In this document: in pieces, positions 2,885 to 62,048 of the stretch
Layout: every line of letters starts with the position of its first letter
Numbering within the stretch: position 1 is the first letter of the stretch
Origin: a virus
Virus record (IMG/VR): IMGVR_UViG_3300022562_002172
Span: 1-63,201 of that record
Strand: one strand, 5' to 3'
DNA length: 63,201 bases
Position numbers and translations under genes: made by a program
Notes under the pieces: model-generated
The model's database searches: none
What the model saw: the letters and a program-made list of their open reading frames with translations, nothing else
What the model was told of the DNA's origin: nothing

Positions 2885-4009
2885 TTATCCAGAGTTCTTC
2901 TTGAGCTCGTCCAGAAGCTCGTCCAGAAGCTTCTGACCCCGCGCCGTCCTGATGCGGGGGAGGTCGACGCTCACCGCGACGTGCAGGTCCCCGCGCCTCT
3001 TAGTCATGGCCCCGACCAGGCCCGCGCCGGGGACCGTCACGACCGTCTTTCCCGCCTGGACTCCCCCCTCGATGTCGATGTTCACCCTGGACCCATCCAG
3101 GGTCGGGACTGACACCGTCCCGCCCCTCAGGGCCACGGACAGAGGGATCACGTGCTCCGTGTAGAGGTCCGCCCCCTCACGGGCGAACCTGTCATGCTGC
3201 GCGACCCGCACCGTCACGTAGAGGTCGCCCGGCGCCCGCCCGTCCCCGGAGGATCCCATCCCGGCGAGCCTGAGTCTTTGCCCGTCTTCAATTCCGACGG
3301 GGATCCTAACCTTCACCTGCCTCTCGGAGGCCACACGCCCGGCCCCGCGGCACGCCGGACATGCGACGAGCGGGGCAGACCCGCTCCCGAAACACGCGGG
3401 GCACTTCCTGACCCTCTCCCCGATCCCGATCCTGAAGTCGAGCACCTTGCCGCTGCCGGAGCATGAGCCGCACGGGATGGTCCTGGAGCCCTTCGCGCAC
3501 CGCGTCCCGCGGCATTCCTGGCACAGGACCTTCACCTTCGACGCCGAAGATATCTCCTTCACGCACCCGGAAGCGACTTCTTCGAGGGTCACGGACACCT
3601 CGGTCTCAACGTCCTCCCCGGGGGTCCCGGCCGGGCCGTCGTCGTCAACCCACGTGTGCTCGGTCTTCGGACGCTCCCTCTGGCGTCGGCGTCCAGGACC
3701 TGGGAATCCGACGTGCCTGAGAAAGTCGTCCAGGTCTTCGGGGGAGTACGCCTGCTTCGGGTCGTACGTCCTCTTGCCCCAGCTGGTCCTCGGTCTCAGG
3801 GACTCGAGGTCGTACATCTCCCTCCGCTGCGGGTCGATCAGGACCTCGTAGGCCTTCGTGGCCTCGATGAACCTCGCCTCAGCCCCCTTGTCGCCCTGGT
3901 TCTTGTCCGGGTGGCTCTCCAGGACGACTTTCCTGTACGCCTTCTTAATGGCGTCCGCGTCCGCGTCCGACGGGACGCCCAGGACCTCGTACAGGCTTCT
4001 GTCTGACAC
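2885..4009 (-). CDS. dnaJ: DnaJ (Hsp40) co-chaperone
   Basis: A full-length type I DnaJ of 374 residues. J-domain at residues 3-67 with HPD at 33-35; a short Gly-poor linker; a zinc domain from about 160 with four CxxCxG repeats (CQECRG, CGSCSG, CPACFG, CPACRG); then the beta-rich substrate-binding C-terminal domains. It would stimulate host DnaK ATPase and deliver substrates; no DnaK or GrpE is in the window. The GTG at 4009 (VSDRSLYEVLG) is chosen over longer in-frame options that run through the upstream gene. Stop is TAA. Confidence 0.95.
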   Translation of the reverse strand: MSDRSLYEVLGVPSDADADAIKKAYRKVVLESHPDKNQGDKGAEARFIEATKAYEVLIDPQRREMYDLESLRPRTSWGKRTYDPKQAYSPEDLDDFLRHVGFPGPGRRRQRERPKTEHTWVDDDGPAGTPGEDVETEVSVTLEEVASGCVKEISSASKVKVLCQECRGTRCAKGSRTIPCGSCSGSGKVLDFRIGIGERVRKCPACFGSGSAPLVACPACRGAGRVASERQVKVRIPVGIEDGQRLRLAGMGSSGDGRAPGDLYVTVRVAQHDRFAREGADLYTEHVIPLSVALRGGTVSVPTLDGSRVNIDIEGGVQAGKTVVTVPGAGLVGAMTKRRGDLHVAVSVDLPRIRTARGQKLLDELLDELKKNSG

Positions 4010-4350: not shown

Positions 4351-7233
4351 ATGCTTCAGCTCCGCCAGATGGACGACCGTGTCAGCGTTCAGCGCGATTG
4401 GTTCAAGGACTATAGCTTTCACCTCGTGGAGAGGGTCAACCAGGTCTCGAAGCTCGTCGATATCTGCGTCCAGCGCGGGATCTGCTCTCTGGACACGGAG
4501 ACGACCGGAGTGGACAACCGCGTCTATCCGGACGAGTACTTCGAGGACGGGCGCGAGACGCGTCACGGGATCAGGACTGTCGATAGGATAGTTGGCCTCT
4601 GCATCTCGTTCGACGGTCAGAACGGATATTACCTCCCCCTGTCGCACGACCCGGAGGACGCTGGGAACCTGCCGTGGGATCCGGTCTGGGATGAGATCAC
4701 GAGACTCGTCAACAACTGCCGGATCATCTTCCACAACATGAAGTTCGACGCCGAGTTCCTCTATCCGGTCACCGGGAAGGAAAACTGGGGCTTGGACGAG
4801 TTCGAGGACACGATGCTCCTGTCCAAGGTCATCAGTCCCCTGAAGAGCAACCCGGCGGGCCTGAAGCAGCGCGCCAAGATCGACTTTGGCGTCGACATGG
4901 TCGAGCTCGACGAGCTCTTCACCGCCGAGAAGAAGGACCAGCTCAAGCGGGAGAAGGTCCGATACAACTTCGCCCTCTTGCATCCGAAGGAGGGCAAGGA
5001 GTATGGGGCCTCCGACGGGATCTTCACGTACAAGGAGTGGTTCCACCACTCCCCGAAGCTCGCCGAGGGGGACCAGCGAATCTACAACCTCGAGAAGGCG
5101 TTCTGCAACGTCATCCGGAAGATGGAGCGGAACCGAGTCCACGTCGACGTGGATCGCGTAAACCAGCTCGCCGTCGAGTGCAGGTCCGAGATGACCAAGA
5201 CCGGCGACATCATCCGGGAGTTCATCGAGAAGCGCACGGGCCAAACGGGTAAGTGGCTGACCCTCAACGTCGGATCTCCGGCCCAGCTCTCAGCCGCCCT
5301 GTTCACTGACCCTGAAGGCATGAAGCTCAAGCCCACGCCCGAGATGGTGAACGAGGGCGACGGCGGATGGGGGACGAACTACGACGGCGGCGGCGGGAGC
5401 GACGATGACGACGATGACGACGACCCCGGGAAGCCGAAGACGTACTCCTTGAAGGACGAGGTCCTCAAGTCGCTTCACCGATACTACGGCAAGGACCTGT
5501 CCGTCCAGAGGGACGGCGTGGTCGACAAGGACGGGAAGCCGAAGCGCGAGAGCATCTTTGAGCTCGTGCTCGAGTATCGGCATTACGACAAGATGAAGGG
5601 CTCGTACGTCGAGAAGCTCCAGAAGTCGCACGACAAATACGGGGACGTCAGGCCGTCGTTCAACCAGATGGGCACCGACACCGCGCGCCTCTCGTGCAAG
5701 GCGGGCAAGATCGAGGAGGGGTACTCCGGGGTTAACTTCCAGGGAATCCCGCGCGACTCCGACGATGACAAGCCCGAGCTCTTCAAGCAGGTCAGGACCG
5801 TGATCATTCCACGGCCCGGCTGGTTCCTCGTGAAGCTCGACTACTCGGGCGAGGAGCTCCGCGTCGTCACGAACATGTCCGGTGATCCGATCTGGACCGA
5901 GTCCTTCCTGCACGGGGACGGGGACGTGCACTCGATCACGACGCGGACCCTGTACGGGCGGCAGAACATCACGAAGGGCGAGCGCAACATCGGGAAGCGC
6001 TGCAACTTCGCGTTCATCTACGGCGGGGGCGCCGGTGCCATCTCAAGGAACATCGGGTGCACCATCGAGGATGGCCAACGCCATATGGACAACCTCAGGC
6101 GGGACGTCCCCGTCCTGATGGGCTATGTCGACCACCAGAAGAAGTTCGCCAACAAATACAAGTGCATCTACACGGCCTTCGGCCGAAAGATGCCGATTCC
6201 GACCATCGACTCTCCGATCCGGGCAATCAAGAAGAAGGCCGAACGCTGCGCTATCAACTACACGATCCAGGCCACCTCGGCGGACGTCCTGAAGTTCGCC
6301 ATGTGTCTGATCGACAAGAAGATCCGGGAGCTCGGGTGGGAGGACAGGGTCAGGTACGTGCTGACCGTCCACGACGAGATCGTGTTCGAGATCCGTCCCG
6401 AGTACCTGATGGACGTAATCCCGCTCCTCAACGAGTGGATGGTCCTGCCGTGGAGGCTCCCGAAGGCGCACGGACGGCCATGGGTCGTCCCTCTCGAGAC
6501 TGAGCCCGGCATCGACGTCCACTGGAGGGCTAGGTTCGACTTCTTTCAGATGACGCGCGGGACCAGGGCGAAGCCAGAGGACATTGGCCCGGACGGGACG
6601 TATAAGGGCAAGCTCAAGGACGGGCAGCTCTTCGAAAACGGCCGCATCTATCAGGAGATCCCGGACTTTCTCGACACCCATGTGTGGCGGTTGCCCCTGG
6701 ACAAGAACGGGGAGCCGATCGTTGAAGGGGGGCCCACGGCCCCCCTCCCCGCCCCGGAGCCGGAGCCGGAGCCGGAGCCGGAGGTCATCGTGGCAAAGGC
6801 GGAGGAACCTGCGCTTTCGGAAGGGACGAAAAAGGTGCCGGAGCCGGTGCCGGAGCCGGTCGCGAAATCCGAGGAAACGAACATGGACCCTGGAGACATC
6901 GACATCGACATCGACATCGTCGGGACTGAGGGGTTCCCCGACGTCCAGGTTGACGCAGGCCCAGTCGAGGAGAGTCCGCCGCCGAAGATTATGGTCAAGG
7001 CTAAAGAGGCCCGTCCTGTTGGCCCGGACGAGAAGGTGCTGCGGTGGGTGTTCAAGGACGTCCCGTCGGACCAGTCGATGCGAAAGCTCCTGGCTGTGTG
7101 CATCCTGGCAGAGGGTCAGGTCCCGCTCCGGATAGTCAACAAGAAGGACCAAGTCCTCATCCCGGAGGGCGAGGGGGTCCGCGTCCATCCGGACCGCTTC
7201 CAGTATCTGGCGTCCCTGTTTGGCCTGGGCTGA
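4351..7233 (+). CDS. Family A DNA polymerase with 3'-5' exonuclease and novel C-terminal extension
   Basis: A 960-residue protein. Proofreading exonuclease: DTETTG (D48, E50), HNMKFDAEF (D133), YGASDG (Y218, D222). Polymerase: motif A DYSGEELR at 497 (usual DYSQIELR), motif B R545-x3-K549 leading to NFAFIYGGG, motif C VHDE (H674, D675). No 5'-nuclease domain. An aspartate run (about 351-358) interrupts the exo-pol linker. After about residue 735 there are some 225 extra residues: a Pro-Glu repeat near 802-812, a D-I repeat near 850-857, and a compact last domain (VLRWVFKDVPSDQSM...). The ATG at 4351 is chosen because a TANNNT box precedes it. Likely the replicative polymerase. Confidence 0.95.
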   Translation: MLQLRQMDDRVSVQRDWFKDYSFHLVERVNQVSKLVDICVQRGICSLDTETTGVDNRVYPDEYFEDGRETRHGIRTVDRIVGLCISFDGQNGYYLPLSHDPEDAGNLPWDPVWDEITRLVNNCRIIFHNMKFDAEFLYPVTGKENWGLDEFEDTMLLSKVISPLKSNPAGLKQRAKIDFGVDMVELDELFTAEKKDQLKREKVRYNFALLHPKEGKEYGASDGIFTYKEWFHHSPKLAEGDQRIYNLEKAFCNVIRKMERNRVHVDVDRVNQLAVECRSEMTKTGDIIREFIEKRTGQTGKWLTLNVGSPAQLSAALFTDPEGMKLKPTPEMVNEGDGGWGTNYDGGGGSDDDDDDDDPGKPKTYSLKDEVLKSLHRYYGKDLSVQRDGVVDKDGKPKRESIFELVLEYRHYDKMKGSYVEKLQKSHDKYGDVRPSFNQMGTDTARLSCKAGKIEEGYSGVNFQGIPRDSDDDKPELFKQVRTVIIPRPGWFLVKLDYSGEELRVVTNMSGDPIWTESFLHGDGDVHSITTRTLYGRQNITKGERNIGKRCNFAFIYGGGAGAISRNIGCTIEDGQRHMDNLRRDVPVLMGYVDHQKKFANKYKCIYTAFGRKMPIPTIDSPIRAIKKKAERCAINYTIQATSADVLKFAMCLIDKKIRELGWEDRVRYVLTVHDEIVFEIRPEYLMDVIPLLNEWMVLPWRLPKAHGRPWVVPLETEPGIDVHWRARFDFFQMTRGTRAKPEDIGPDGTYKGKLKDGQLFENGRIYQEIPDFLDTHVWRLPLDKNGEPIVEGGPTAPLPAPEPEPEPEPEVIVAKAEEPALSEGTKKVPEPVPEPVAKSEETNMDPGDIDIDIDIVGTEGFPDVQVDAGPVEESPPPKIMVKAKEARPVGPDEKVLRWVFKDVPSDQSMRKLLAVCILAEGQVPLRIVNKKDQVLIPEGEGVRVHPDRFQYLASLFGLG

Positions 7234-31689: not shown

Positions 31690-33024
31690 CTACTCCGGGA
31701 AATCCGACATCTGCGCCGGCGGCCGCAGAGACGAAGTCTTCAGCTCCTGTCCGACCCCCAACACCTCGGCCTTGATCCCGTCAGTCCTGCCAAGGAGGTC
31801 AAAATTCCTCTCTATGAACGAGACAACCTTTCCAGGGTCCGCGTCCTTGGAGAAAGCAACGGTAGGTCCGTGACCCCTCAGCATGACGGCGGTCGACTCG
31901 CCGAATCGCTTCATCCCGGAGCTTACGTTCGCGCCGCTTTCGTGGGATCCGCACTCAAACGGCCACTGCTCCCGGACTGGTATCGAGTCCGGACGGTCCG
32001 GACGGAGCGGACAGTGGAAGTGGATCACGCAGTCCACACCCTCGTGGTCCCTGAACACGGAGATCTGGTCCTGGATCTCGAAGGACGGTTTCCTTCCGTA
32101 CGCTGTCACGGCCCTATCCTCCCCGAACTCGCATCTCGTCAGCCCCTCCTCGTCGATCTTCCTCACGTCAGCCCATCGTGCCGTCGTCAAGATCGACCTA
32201 TCACCTTCCCTGACGGACACGTACCCTGGGGTAGTGTCGAGAACGGCTTTGTAGGCCCCACGGCTCACGCAGTGCTCCAGGACGGCCCTGAGTGCCTCCG
32301 GGACCACCTCGGACGCCCACGGGACGTCCGGGCCCACGGGCGTTGTCGTTCTCGTAAAAGTGAGGCGGGACCTGGAGGACACCATCGTCGTGAGCCTCTC
32401 TAGGACCTCATCCTTGTCCAGGGATGTGTGGTACCTGACTTGCTCCGGGGCCACAATCATGTTTATGCGCGTGTGCATGTCGTTCGTCATGACGAGGTTG
32501 CAGGACGCCGACCTCAAGAATCTGTATCCAGCGACGAACTGTTCGTCCTCCGACGCCCCGGCCGTGGTCCGGAATCCGATCAGGTACAGGTCCTTTCGGT
32601 AGTGGCGGACGCCCGGGATGATCTTTTCGGACGGGTCCAGGGACGCTATGTGGCGCCCGTCCCCGGACCTTAGCATGGGCTCCAGCTTCCCGCTGTCGGT
32701 CGGGACCGACCCTTTTGCGAGGACTTTCGCCGTGAAGTCGACAAGGGAAACGGGGAGGAAGAGGACCTTCACGTCCGGATCGGCCACGATCCGGACGAGA
32801 AGCCGTCGGACGTCCTCGTTCGTCTCCAGGTCCCCGGTCCCGGAGTTGGCCATCCTCGTCAGATGCAGGTGAACGTTGTCCTCGCCCCAAACGGGGGCGC
32901 ACAGGTCCTTCAGGCGGCGGGCCGTCCGTCCGTACGCGACCGAGGACAGGGATAGGTGCGGCCTCACATGGAAAACGGTCCCTCCTCCTACTATGTGGAC
33001 CTGGGGTCCCAGTCCGTTTTCCAT
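31690..33024 (-). CDS. CoaB-like / class II aldolase-like fusion protein
   Basis: A 444-residue protein. N-terminal half: VHIVGGGTVFHVRPHLSLSS, then LETNEDVRRLLVRIVADPDV and KVLFLPVSLVDF, like the nucleotide-binding CoaB half of Dfp flavoproteins. C-terminal half: CVIHFHCPLRP, FECGSHESGANVSSGM, AVMLRGHGPTVAF, matching the H-x-H and later His zinc ligands of class II aldolase/adducin folds. Neither catalytic set can be confirmed by eye, and the substrate is unknown. GTGTAACTT lies 15 bases before the ATG. Confidence 0.7.
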   Translation of the reverse strand: MENGLGPQVHIVGGGTVFHVRPHLSLSSVAYGRTARRLKDLCAPVWGEDNVHLHLTRMANSGTGDLETNEDVRRLLVRIVADPDVKVLFLPVSLVDFTAKVLAKGSVPTDSGKLEPMLRSGDGRHIASLDPSEKIIPGVRHYRKDLYLIGFRTTAGASEDEQFVAGYRFLRSASCNLVMTNDMHTRINMIVAPEQVRYHTSLDKDEVLERLTTMVSSRSRLTFTRTTTPVGPDVPWASEVVPEALRAVLEHCVSRGAYKAVLDTTPGYVSVREGDRSILTTARWADVRKIDEEGLTRCEFGEDRAVTAYGRKPSFEIQDQISVFRDHEGVDCVIHFHCPLRPDRPDSIPVREQWPFECGSHESGANVSSGMKRFGESTAVMLRGHGPTVAFSKDADPGKVVSFIERNFDLLGRTDGIKAEVLGVGQELKTSSLRPPAQMSDFPE

Positions 33025-33042: not shown

Positions 33043-33372
33043 TTACACCCCCGTGGTCTGGCCTAGGTCCGGATCCGCTGGCCCGTCGTCCAAGTCGACG
33101 TTGTCCATGGCGACGCTCAGCCACCTTCGATATATCGCGGCGCGTCGGACCAAGGATTGGGCCCTCGTCATGAGGGATGCCTGATTGCCTTCCTCGAGGG
33201 CGTGGACGATCTCCTTCGGCTCCACCCGCTTTGACGCTTCCTCCGCGAGAACTCTGCCTAGGGCACAGTCCTGGTTCTCCAGCATGCTCAGGACGTCCTC
33301 CCTGCCTTCGAACTCTTTCCGAACGTCCGTCGCGAAGTCCTTCGGATAGGAAATCCTCATGTCCCCGATCAT
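33043..33372 (-). CDS. Hypothetical protein
   Basis: A 109-residue, mostly helical protein (ISYPKDFATDVRKEFEGRED, RAQSLVRRAAIYRRWLSVAM). ATG overlaps the upstream TGA. Its TAA stop is part of the GTGTAACTT promoter-like element of the next gene. Confidence 0.65.
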   Translation of the reverse strand: MIGDMRISYPKDFATDVRKEFEGREDVLSMLENQDCALGRVLAEEASKRVEPKEIVHALEEGNQASLMTRAQSLVRRAAIYRRWLSVAMDNVDLDDGPADPDLGQTTGV

Positions 33373-42779: not shown

Positions 42780-42785
42780 CCTTCG

Positions 42786-42868
42786 TGGGCCGGGCGGGAG
42801 TCGAACCCGCAGTGGCGTTCGCCGCCGGATTTTAAATCCGGCCCCTTTGCCTGTTTGGATACCGGCCC
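42786..42868 (-). tRNA. tRNA-Leu (anticodon UAA)
   Basis: An 83-nt class II tRNA: acceptor GGGCCGG/CCGGCCC with A73, anticodon stem CCGGA/TCCGG around loop TTTAAAA (anticodon TAA), a long variable arm (GGCGAACGCC) and T-arm TTCGACT. No CCA is encoded. It reads UUA, a rare codon in GC-rich genes. The upstream gene ends one base before it. Confidence 0.93.
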
Positions 42869-44513: not shown

Positions 44514-44516
44514 CAG

Positions 44517-44876
44517 TGGAGGCGCGGGGAATCGAACCCCGGTCCGCGCAGTTCCGTCAAAGTCCTCTTCACGTGCGTAGCCGGCGTAGCTGCCCCGGCT
44601 CAGATGACGGCGGGCGTCATAACGTCCCCGCCTGGAGGCTCTTGCTTCTCTCGCCCTAGGGCCGCTGACCTCGCTAAATTCCCCAGAGCCAGCCCGTGTG
44701 GGTTTATGCCGTCCGGGTTACTCGGGCTCCTGTCCCAGCCGACAGCTCACGCGGCGATGCCGACGTCAGCGATTGCGTTGTCGTTCGCAGTTGGTACGGC
44801 TCGCTTTGTCAAGGCAGATCGAGCGCTGCCTGCACGCAGACTTCTCCTTTCCCGCACGTCGAAACCGATCGCCCCC
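44517..44876 (-). ncRNA. ssrA: tmRNA (SsrA), tag ANDNAIADVGIAA
   Basis: One-piece tmRNA of about 360 nt. The ends pair as a seven-base acceptor (GGGGGCG with CGCCTCC, A73), the 5' part has the hallmark GATCGGTTTCGACG, and the 3' part has a T-arm CGGGG-TTCGATT-CCCCG. The tag reading frame at 44747-44788 is GCG AAC GAC AAC ... GCC GCG TGA. No CCA is encoded. It would rescue ribosomes stalled on stop-less messages and mark the products for proteolysis. Confidence 0.95.
44747..44788 (-). other. tmRNA proteolysis-tag reading frame
   Basis: Thirteen codons plus TGA, resume codon GCG preceded by CAACT. The tag starts ANDN, as in many proteobacterial tmRNAs, and ends in IAA rather than the common LAA. 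Confidence 0.88.
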
Positions 44877-46252: not shown

Positions 46253-47278
46253 TTACGGTCCCGGACCCTCTGCCGGAGGAGTTCCGGCCTGGTCCAGCCA
46301 TTCGGAGCCGGGCTTTGAGTTCCAGGGCCACACCGTCCTGGGCCTCGAGGCCATTACGGAGTCCCAGGCCCTGCGTATGCCCGGGCGCGCGAGGACGAAC
46401 GCGACCGGGATAGCTATCATGGCGGCGTCGGCGAGCACCGACCAGGCAACCGGGATTCGTACGAAGTGGTCCGCTATCATCTTCGCCCCGATGAGGATTG
46501 CTATCGCGGCGAGGCTCGACTCGAGGAACCTGTGCCTCTTCAGCAATCCGACCATGACGAAGTACAGGGACCTCATCATGAGGGCGGCAAGCACGTCGGA
46601 CGTGTACACGACGATCGGGTGGTGGGACACCGTGTAGATGGCGGTTATCGAATCGACCGCGGACATGGCATCCACGATCTCGACCGTGGCGACGACGATC
46701 AGGGGCGTGACGAGGAGCTCTCCCCCGCGCAGAGACGTAAGGCCGGCCCTTCCGGCCCAGTCGGACCTCAAGACGAGCTTCAGGAGCCTGCTGTCCGGCC
46801 TCTTTCCGCGGTCGAGGAAGACCTTCAGGCCCACGACGATGAGCGCCGCCCCGAAGACGTAGCTTATCCATCCGAACCTCGGGAGGATGAAGCTTCCGGT
46901 TGCGACCCAAAAGGCCCGGGCAGGGACCATGCACAGGACGCCCCAGGACAGGAGAAAGCTCTGGTACGCCTCGGGGACCCCGTAGAGGGAGAAGATGATG
47001 GAGAACATCAGCAGGTTGTCCATCGACAGGACGCTCTCGGTGAAAAAGCCGTACCCGAACTCCGCTACATAGCTTGGCCCAAGAGACAGGGCGAACCCGG
47101 CGCAGAAGGCCCCGGCCAGGATCACCCAGGTCAGGCTCTCCAGCACGGCGAGCCCGATGCTCCTCTCGTGGGGCTCCCCGTGCACAACCCCGAGGTACAG
47201 GGAGATCACGAGGAGAAGGAGGAAAGCGAGAATGACGTAGTGCTCCGTCCCCACGTGGGTGCCAAGCATGGTGCGCAT
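46253..47278 (-). CDS. terC: TerC-family integral membrane protein
   Basis: A 341-residue protein with about eight spans and TerC signatures: TESVLSMDNLLMFSIIF (conserved Asp-Asn), ILPRFGWISYVFGAALIVVG, VEIVDAMSAVDSITAIY (Glu, Asp-Ser). TerC-like proteins are linked to tellurite resistance and Mn2+ export that supports secreted-protein metalation. Follows the SPFH gene directly, in one operon with an endolysin-like gene. Confidence 0.93.
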   Translation of the reverse strand: MRTMLGTHVGTEHYVILAFLLLLVISLYLGVVHGEPHERSIGLAVLESLTWVILAGAFCAGFALSLGPSYVAEFGYGFFTESVLSMDNLLMFSIIFSLYGVPEAYQSFLLSWGVLCMVPARAFWVATGSFILPRFGWISYVFGAALIVVGLKVFLDRGKRPDSRLLKLVLRSDWAGRAGLTSLRGGELLVTPLIVVATVEIVDAMSAVDSITAIYTVSHHPIVVYTSDVLAALMMRSLYFVMVGLLKRHRFLESSLAAIAILIGAKMIADHFVRIPVAWSVLADAAMIAIPVAFVLARPGIRRAWDSVMASRPRTVWPWNSKPGSEWLDQAGTPPAEGPGP

Positions 47279-49990: not shown

Positions 49991-50010
49991 GGGCACGGCG
50001 GGCACGGCGG
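49991..50010. repeat. Tandem 10-base repeat at the 3' end of the UUA tRNA
   Basis: GGGCACGGCG is repeated twice (49991-50000, 50001-50010, second copy GGCACGGCGG-shifted). The second overlaps the tRNA 3' acceptor, so the trailer duplicates the tRNA end. May be slippage or a scar of past integration. Confidence 0.45.
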
Positions 50011-50070
50011 GGGTCGAACCCGCGACCGGCGGATTTAAAATCCGCAGCTCTGCCTCTGAGCTACGCGCCC
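49999..50070 (-). tRNA. tRNA with anticodon UUA (putative ochre suppressor)
   Basis: A 72-nt clean cloverleaf: acceptor GGGCGCG/CGTGCCC with G73, D-stem GCTC/GAGC, anticodon stem GCGGA/TCCGC around loop TTTTAAA, T-stem GCGGG/CCCGC. Positions 34-36 are TTA, which pairs with UAA (and perhaps UAG by wobble). Amino acid identity unknown. No CCA encoded. The stop codon of the upstream HD gene lies inside it (U8-A9-G10). Confidence 0.85.
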
Positions 50071-50690
50071 GGTTCAAGCTCCTCGATTGCCCTCCTTAAG
50101 TTCTCCCTAGCCCTGTCCTCGAGTTCCTCCCTGAACAAGTCAGTGTGGAACACGCTGTCCATACCGATAAACCTGCGGAGGACGGATAGCCTCCCCGTCC
50201 GGAAAAGGTCATCCGGGACGTGCGCGTACTCGGACCTGATCTGGCGCCCGTACTCGGAGAAGCGGTCCCACTCGGCCCCGAGGATGGACAGGTCGGCGTC
50301 GACTACGCACTTCGCGTCCGGGGTCTTGAGCTCCCCGCCCCGGTGCTGCGTCAGGAGGATGAGGCCCCGGACCCGGAAGCACTCGACCTCCCTGATCCCG
50401 GCGGCGGCCAGGGACTTGGTCGCGAAGTCCGCGCTCCTCCTCTCGCTGTCCGAGGCCCTGACGTCGTATACGGCGTCGTGAAACCAGACGGCGAGCTCGG
50501 CGCTCGCCGAGACGTCCCCGATCTTGTCCAGGGCGGCCATGCACTCCGACAGGTGGCGGGTGTTGTGGTACGCGCGGCGCGAGTCCGAATAACGAAGGAC
50601 GAGGTTGTCGAACAGGTCCTCCGGGGCGTCAAGCCCAGCCTTAGACCACGTCTTGATCCACCTGTCGAACAGATCGGCGGTCAGGGCCAT
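50061..50690 (-). CDS. HD-superfamily metal-dependent phosphohydrolase
   Basis: A 209-residue protein: YSDSRRAYHNTRHLSECMAA (first His), LAVWFHDAVYD (HD), SERRSADFATKSL, VVDADLSILGAEWDRFSEYG, IRSEYAHVPDDLF. This is the order of the COG4339-type HD proteins, predicted hydrolases of nucleotides. It ends on TAG supplied by bases 8-10 of the UUA tRNA, overlapping that gene by 10 nt. Confidence 0.9.
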   Translation of the reverse strand: MALTADLFDRWIKTWSKAGLDAPEDLFDNLVLRYSDSRRAYHNTRHLSECMAALDKIGDVSASAELAVWFHDAVYDVRASDSERRSADFATKSLAAAGIREVECFRVRGLILLTQHRGGELKTPDAKCVVDADLSILGAEWDRFSEYGRQIRSEYAHVPDDLFRTGRLSVLRRFIGMDSVFHTDLFREELEDRARENLRRAIEELEPGA

Positions 50691-61956: not shown

Positions 61957-61976
61957 CGTTGAAGGGACACGATCGG

Positions 61977-62048
61977 TAGGCGGGACAGGGGTCGAACCTG
62001 CGACGTCCGGCTTGTAAGGCCAGCGCTCTACCACTGAGCTACCCGCCC
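61977..62048 (-). tRNA. tRNA-Val (anticodon UAC)
   Basis: A 72-nt cloverleaf: acceptor GGGCGGG/CCCGCCT (G1-U72 wobble) with A73, D-stem GCTC/GAGC, anticodon stem CTGGC/GCCGG around CTTACAA, T-arm GCAGG-TTCGACC-CCTGT. No CCA (CCG follows). Bases 8-10 (UAG) are the stop codon of the vanW-like gene upstream. Confidence 0.93.

Follow-up and report, generated by a model that had tools for sequence, protein, structure and literature searches.

A UUA (ochre-type) tRNA gene in a probable huge-phage fragment that retains UAA as a stop codon

The ochre suppressors supB and supG of E. coli are sense tRNAs that acquired a UUA anticodon; both are selected laboratory mutants of host tRNAs, and they are tolerated at low efficiency. 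Stop-anticodon tRNAs are also found in unrecoded phages, where they have been proposed either to mark the beginnings of a new code or to let host stops be read through mildly. For UUA suppressor tRNAs without recoding, one phage case is on record: in the crAss-like phage OKSC01000115, a tRNA-Sup(TTA) emerged from tRNA-Gln by one mutation, TAA was not reassigned, and the case was termed suppressor pre-emergence (PMC7886860). Among 10,754 jumbo phages surveyed, none was found to recode TAA (PMC13037316), and some suppressor tRNAs seem inactive (PMC12386605).

Here we examine a UUA tRNA gene in an IMG/VR virus record of 63,201 bases and 63% GC, hereafter the window, by which we mean the whole stretch of DNA that was analysed. 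We favour, with a probability of about 0.55, the reading that this tRNA is an ochre-type suppressor of a huge phage, weakly acting if at all, akin to amber tRNAs and involved in no codon reassignment.

The tRNA gene and its genomic setting

ARAGORN calls the locus as a tRNA-Stop with anticodon tta on the minus strand, and the Rfam model RF00005 matches it over its full length (1-71) with 66.1 bits (cut-off 29; E 3.7e-12), the second highest RF00005 score among the five tRNAs of the window. The features of the locus are as follows.

49999..50070, minus strand: tRNA gene, anticodon UUA (ochre-type), 72 nt, G73 (ARAGORN, RF00005, fold z -2.59)
50036..50038, minus strand: anticodon 5'-UUA-3' (positions 34-36), with U33 and A37-A38 on either side (sequence, 5-bp anticodon stem)
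50061..50690, minus strand: gene of a 209-aa phosphohydrolase-like protein, directly upstream of the UUA tRNA (gene call; phrog_19425, E 6.6e-24)

Reading the sequence gives an acceptor stem GGGCGCG/CGUGCCC with a single G5-U68 pair, a D arm GCUC/GAGC, a T arm GCGGG-UUCGACC-CCCGC and a G73 discriminator. The anticodon arm is GCGGA-UUUUAAA-UCCGC, with a 7-base loop composed of U32 U33 U34 U35 A36 A37 A38. The perfect 5-bp stem fixes the register: a Lys-type anticodon (UUU) was rejected because the stem would break, and none of the shifted stems yields another anticodon. The anticodon is thus UUA. The sequence-only reading had proposed a well-formed UUA tRNA at this place, with U33 and A37 in a TTTTAAA loop closed by GCGGA/TCCGC and the cloverleaf otherwise intact. 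All of this is borne out, with every stem paired, and ARAGORN and Rfam concur on a full-length tRNA with this anticodon. Since the stems are perfect bar the one G-U pair, this is not a decaying gene. Of the marks of a phage suppressor tRNA, the gene shows an intact cloverleaf and an anticodon that pairs with a stop codon; the other mark, charging by a synthetase with insertion of an amino acid at the stop, is predicted. The pattern of body plus loop occurs once in the window and never in 100 shuffles of it. None of the five window tRNAs encodes a full CCA, so the UUA tRNA is not exceptional in this respect. The nine bases preceding the discriminator (GCCGTGCCC, minus strand) are tandemly repeated immediately afterwards (49991-50008); the discriminator G is base 1 of the second copy, and the repeat offers the 5' acceptor strand an alternative partner.

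The window is probably a fragment of a longer genome. Its genes include a DNA polymerase, a UvsX-like recombinase, a clamp loader, sigma factors and an AAA protein, together with nucleotide-metabolism genes, dnaJ, terC and corA; one tmRNA accompanies the five tRNAs. No near match to the window was found in the phage collection. Single genes match those of huge phages at about 30-42% identity, namely LR756511 (595 kb), LR745208 (485 kb) and two IMG/VR contigs (392 kb and 424 kb). On these matches, the window probably derives from a huge phage. Relatives of the phosphohydrolase-like protein are located on the same 392-kb and 424-kb contigs. Its gene stops at a UAG formed by positions 8-10 of the UUA tRNA, and the tRNA-Val at 61975-62048 likewise supplies the stop of its upstream gene. 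The UUA tRNA closes a same-strand run comprising sigma factor, NUDIX and phosphohydrolase-like genes.

Elsewhere in the window, a tRNA-Leu with anticodon UAA resides at 42785-42868, in a gene set using TTA only 4 times and TTG 96 times. The phage-encoded tmRNA (44514-44876) carries the tag ANDNAIADVGIAA, and no similar DNA was found in the phage collection. A search of nine large phage records recovered a protein of about 195-235 aa with an RF-1 release-factor domain from five (L368, L369, G002, W01, G006); none was found in the window.

Is UAA read as sense in the window?

A simple gene call returned 105 genes, one of which, lying within tRNA-Arg, is spurious; the remaining 104 end in TGA (69), TAG (25) or TAA (10). 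Three TAA-ended genes are of particular concern here.

2885..4009, minus strand: dnaJ, TAA stop (Pfam DnaJ_C and DnaJ)
46253..47278, minus strand: terC, TAA stop (Pfam TerC)
33043..33372, minus strand: gene of 109 aa, TAA stop, same frame as the following gene (31690-33024); no other TAA has a long open readthrough

No recognised gene of the window is interrupted by an in-frame TAA. Treating TAA as sense leaves coding coverage at 0.87 and lengthens the mean ORF from 251 to 259 aa, and the frames beyond nine of the ten TAA stops score as non-coding. Gene ends in TAA are not depleted relative to out-of-frame triplets (p 0.53) and are rarer than expected from intergenic triplets (p 0.001). Programmed readthrough from 33043-33372 into 31690-33024 was considered and rejected. 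The homologue of the downstream gene in LR756511 begins at its own ATG, behind a different upstream gene, and the TAA is therefore most likely a real stop, as judged from sequence comparison. The protein encoded at 31690-33024 carries a class II aldolase domain at its C-terminus, and its N-terminal part is common to Caulobacter and Pseudomonas phages; a full-length relative occurs only in the 595-kb LR756511. An excess of in-frame neighbours after TAA or TAG, as compared with TGA, was likewise dismissed (p 0.23, overlapping genes set aside), and we saw no pattern among the TAA-ended genes hinting at a purpose for readthrough.

Since TAA stops are in use, no gene is broken and coverage is unchanged, the window shows no sign of UAA recoding, and UAA remains a stop. 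None of three hallmarks of stop-recoded phages (in-frame TAA in conserved genes, a gain in coverage, loss of TAA as a terminator) was found in the window, with no virion genes among the genes tested; a scan of 40 window proteins against PHROGs recognised no gene of virion structure. Two expectations stand: pairing of the tRNA with UAA, and a UAA codon that is not fully reassigned, with 10 of 104 genes ending in TAA. The sequence-only reading was also right in counting at least ten such genes, dnaJ and terC among ten convincing cases, but the cupin-like gene it listed was not identified. Its analogy with stop-recoding phages finds no support in this fragment, given the ten TAA stops, the non-coding sequence beyond nine of them and the flat coverage. 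The UUA tRNA is not a mark of a new genetic code, and a reading as stop-codon recoding is not supported in the window.

Amber kinship and the rarity of UUA tRNAs

To which tRNAs is this body related? We computed class-wise position scores trained on phage tRNAs from retrieved loci, with the anticodon masked. Without an amber class, the UUA tRNA lay close to Lys, Arg and Asn, none of which stood out. An amber class was then added, excluding positions forced by the search pattern, and the scores became -39.7 for amber, -48.3 for Lys and -49.0 for Arg, a lead of 8.6 nats that has to be read with the fact that the amber set was gathered with a pattern sharing the D arm of the UUA tRNA. Leave-one-out recovered 64 of 74 amber tRNAs and miscalled as amber 18 of 640 non-amber tRNAs, none by 5 nats or more; among non-amber tRNAs of the same body pattern, 5 of 44 were miscalled, all by at most 2.1 nats. 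With the anticodon ignored, the body thus groups with CUA tRNAs, and on this sequence measure the nearest kin of the UUA tRNA are the amber tRNAs of large phages.

Two of the four huge phages sharing a gene with the window carry G73 amber tRNAs, one of them with U32 as in the UUA tRNA, and both still end genes with TAG. When TAG was taken as sense, by a crude local measure, coverage rose by at least 10% in 10 of 61 amber-carrying loci of at least 5 kb. As TAG is still used as a stop and few loci gain coverage, stop-anticodon tRNAs of the UAG type without obvious recoding look common. The window's tRNA can be regarded as their UAA counterpart, one anticodon base away.

The UAA version is far less frequent. 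IMG/VR was searched with a single fixed pattern covering the body and the anticodon loop, in a UUA and a CUA form; the CUA form retrieved 73 contigs and the UUA form only one other. By this single IMG/VR pattern, UAG-type tRNAs outnumber UAA-type ones about 70-fold, as fits a codon, UAA, that both release factors recognise. Among 84,980 genomes of bacteria and archaea, the fixed UUA pattern had three matches, all near the ends of contigs shorter than 5.3 kb. A looser UUA pattern retrieved 11 contigs; six of these have a called UUA tRNA, and all six are viral with 25-42% GC. UUA tRNAs are rare and scattered over unrelated contigs. Several candidates were discarded. The anticodon arm alone proved unsuitable as a query: its reverse complement is the tRNA-Leu(UAA) arm, and its 23 matches included no called UUA tRNA. 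For other looser ochre patterns the matches listed were dominated by tRNA-Lys and chance. The apparent UUA tRNA in LR756511 is a tRNA-Lys, and a tRNA-Glu beside a related gene in L150 differs in body and is not an orthologue.

One of the six contigs with a called UUA tRNA is a jumbo phage contig of 458,729 bases and about 36-42% GC. Eight 20-kb samples across this genome (160 kb) showed TAA ending 66 of 174 long ORFs, and helicase matches plus one weak terminase match are free of internal stops; TAA recoding is thus unsupported in the sampled regions. In part of the same genome, TGA stops are unusually abundant relative to TAA stops (L425: TGA 19, TAA 3). A 5-kb viral contig (L390) has two different UUA tRNAs (3878-3953 and 4375-4448) and five long ORFs, none with a TAA stop; judged by eye, its end encodes the start of a glutamyl-tRNA synthetase-like protein.

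Probable role and comparison with known systems

In the scenario we favour, an amber-like ancestor probably gave rise to the UUA tRNA by a change of one anticodon base, C34 to U. The tRNA would be transcribed together with the upstream genes, receive its CCA from a host enzyme and be charged by a host synthetase. The identity elements are mixed (G73, U35, A36), and the body score favours no single amino acid. G73 and U35 allow several synthetases in principle; G1-C72 and C11-G24 speak against efficient charging with Gln and Glu. Once charged, the tRNA would read UAA, and probably some UAG through U34 wobble, at low efficiency and in competition with release factors. During infection, host or phage stops would then be read through to a mild degree, with no codon reassigned. 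Judged by its sequence, low-level suppression by this tRNA is possible.

A rather doubtful alternative, yet the foremost one, is a neutral or pre-emergent point mutation to UUA, leaving a tRNA that folds and may even be made, yet has no effect under selection and is destined for decay or loss. The rarity of UUA tRNAs and their scatter across unrelated contigs agree with it, as does the crAss-like precedent in which a tRNA-Gln anticodon changed from TTG to TTA without TAA reassignment (PMC7886860). Against it are the intact stems, the loop with U33 and A36-A37-A38, and the called UUA tRNAs on six further viral contigs.

It is very unlikely that late or virion genes beyond the fragment have UAA as a sense codon; if they did, the complete phage would be the first that recodes UAA. 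Late-confined reassignment of UAG and UGA is common in crAss-like phages (PMC7886860), and the window has no recognised virion-structure gene; yet TAA is the working stop of ten window genes, no TAA recoder was found among the 10,754 jumbo phages (PMC13037316), and the 458-kb contig is not TAA-recoded where sampled. A role in trapping host proteins, as a decoy for anticodon nucleases or for others that bind tRNA, is highly improbable: the loop is U-rich like that of tRNA-Lys, a target of PrrC-type nucleases, but no feature of the window hints at such a trap. Least credible of all is that an error of sequencing or assembly altered a sense or amber tRNA, for while the three bacterial matches sit at error-prone ends of tiny MAG contigs, the UUA tRNA lies far from any contig end, and an origin from lysine requires two changes (C32U, U36A) and from asparagine three (C32U, G34U, U36A).

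A weakly acting, amber-derived ochre suppressor can be set beside several described systems. The window adds a GC-rich huge-phage case with a probable amber ancestor, and the role of such tRNAs is therefore testable by a simple reporter. Like stop-recoded phages (genetic code 15, UGA recoding), this phage encodes a stop-anticodon tRNA, but in the window, unlike in those phages, the corresponding stop codon is not used in frame. In contrast to the supB and supG host mutants, the UUA tRNA is a natural phage gene whose suppressor role is predicted. With the amber (CUA) tRNAs of large and jumbo phages it shares a short D loop, a G27-rich anticodon stem and the often present G73; unlike these, it should read UAA, and perhaps UAG too, instead of UAG alone, and is far rarer. 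The closest parallel is OKSC01000115, which also combines a UUA anticodon with no sign of TAA reassignment, but that gut phage derived its tRNA from tRNA-Gln, whereas here the body fits the amber class and the source is a GC-rich huge-phage fragment. With this precedent, the UUA tRNA is a rather rare example of an already known type.
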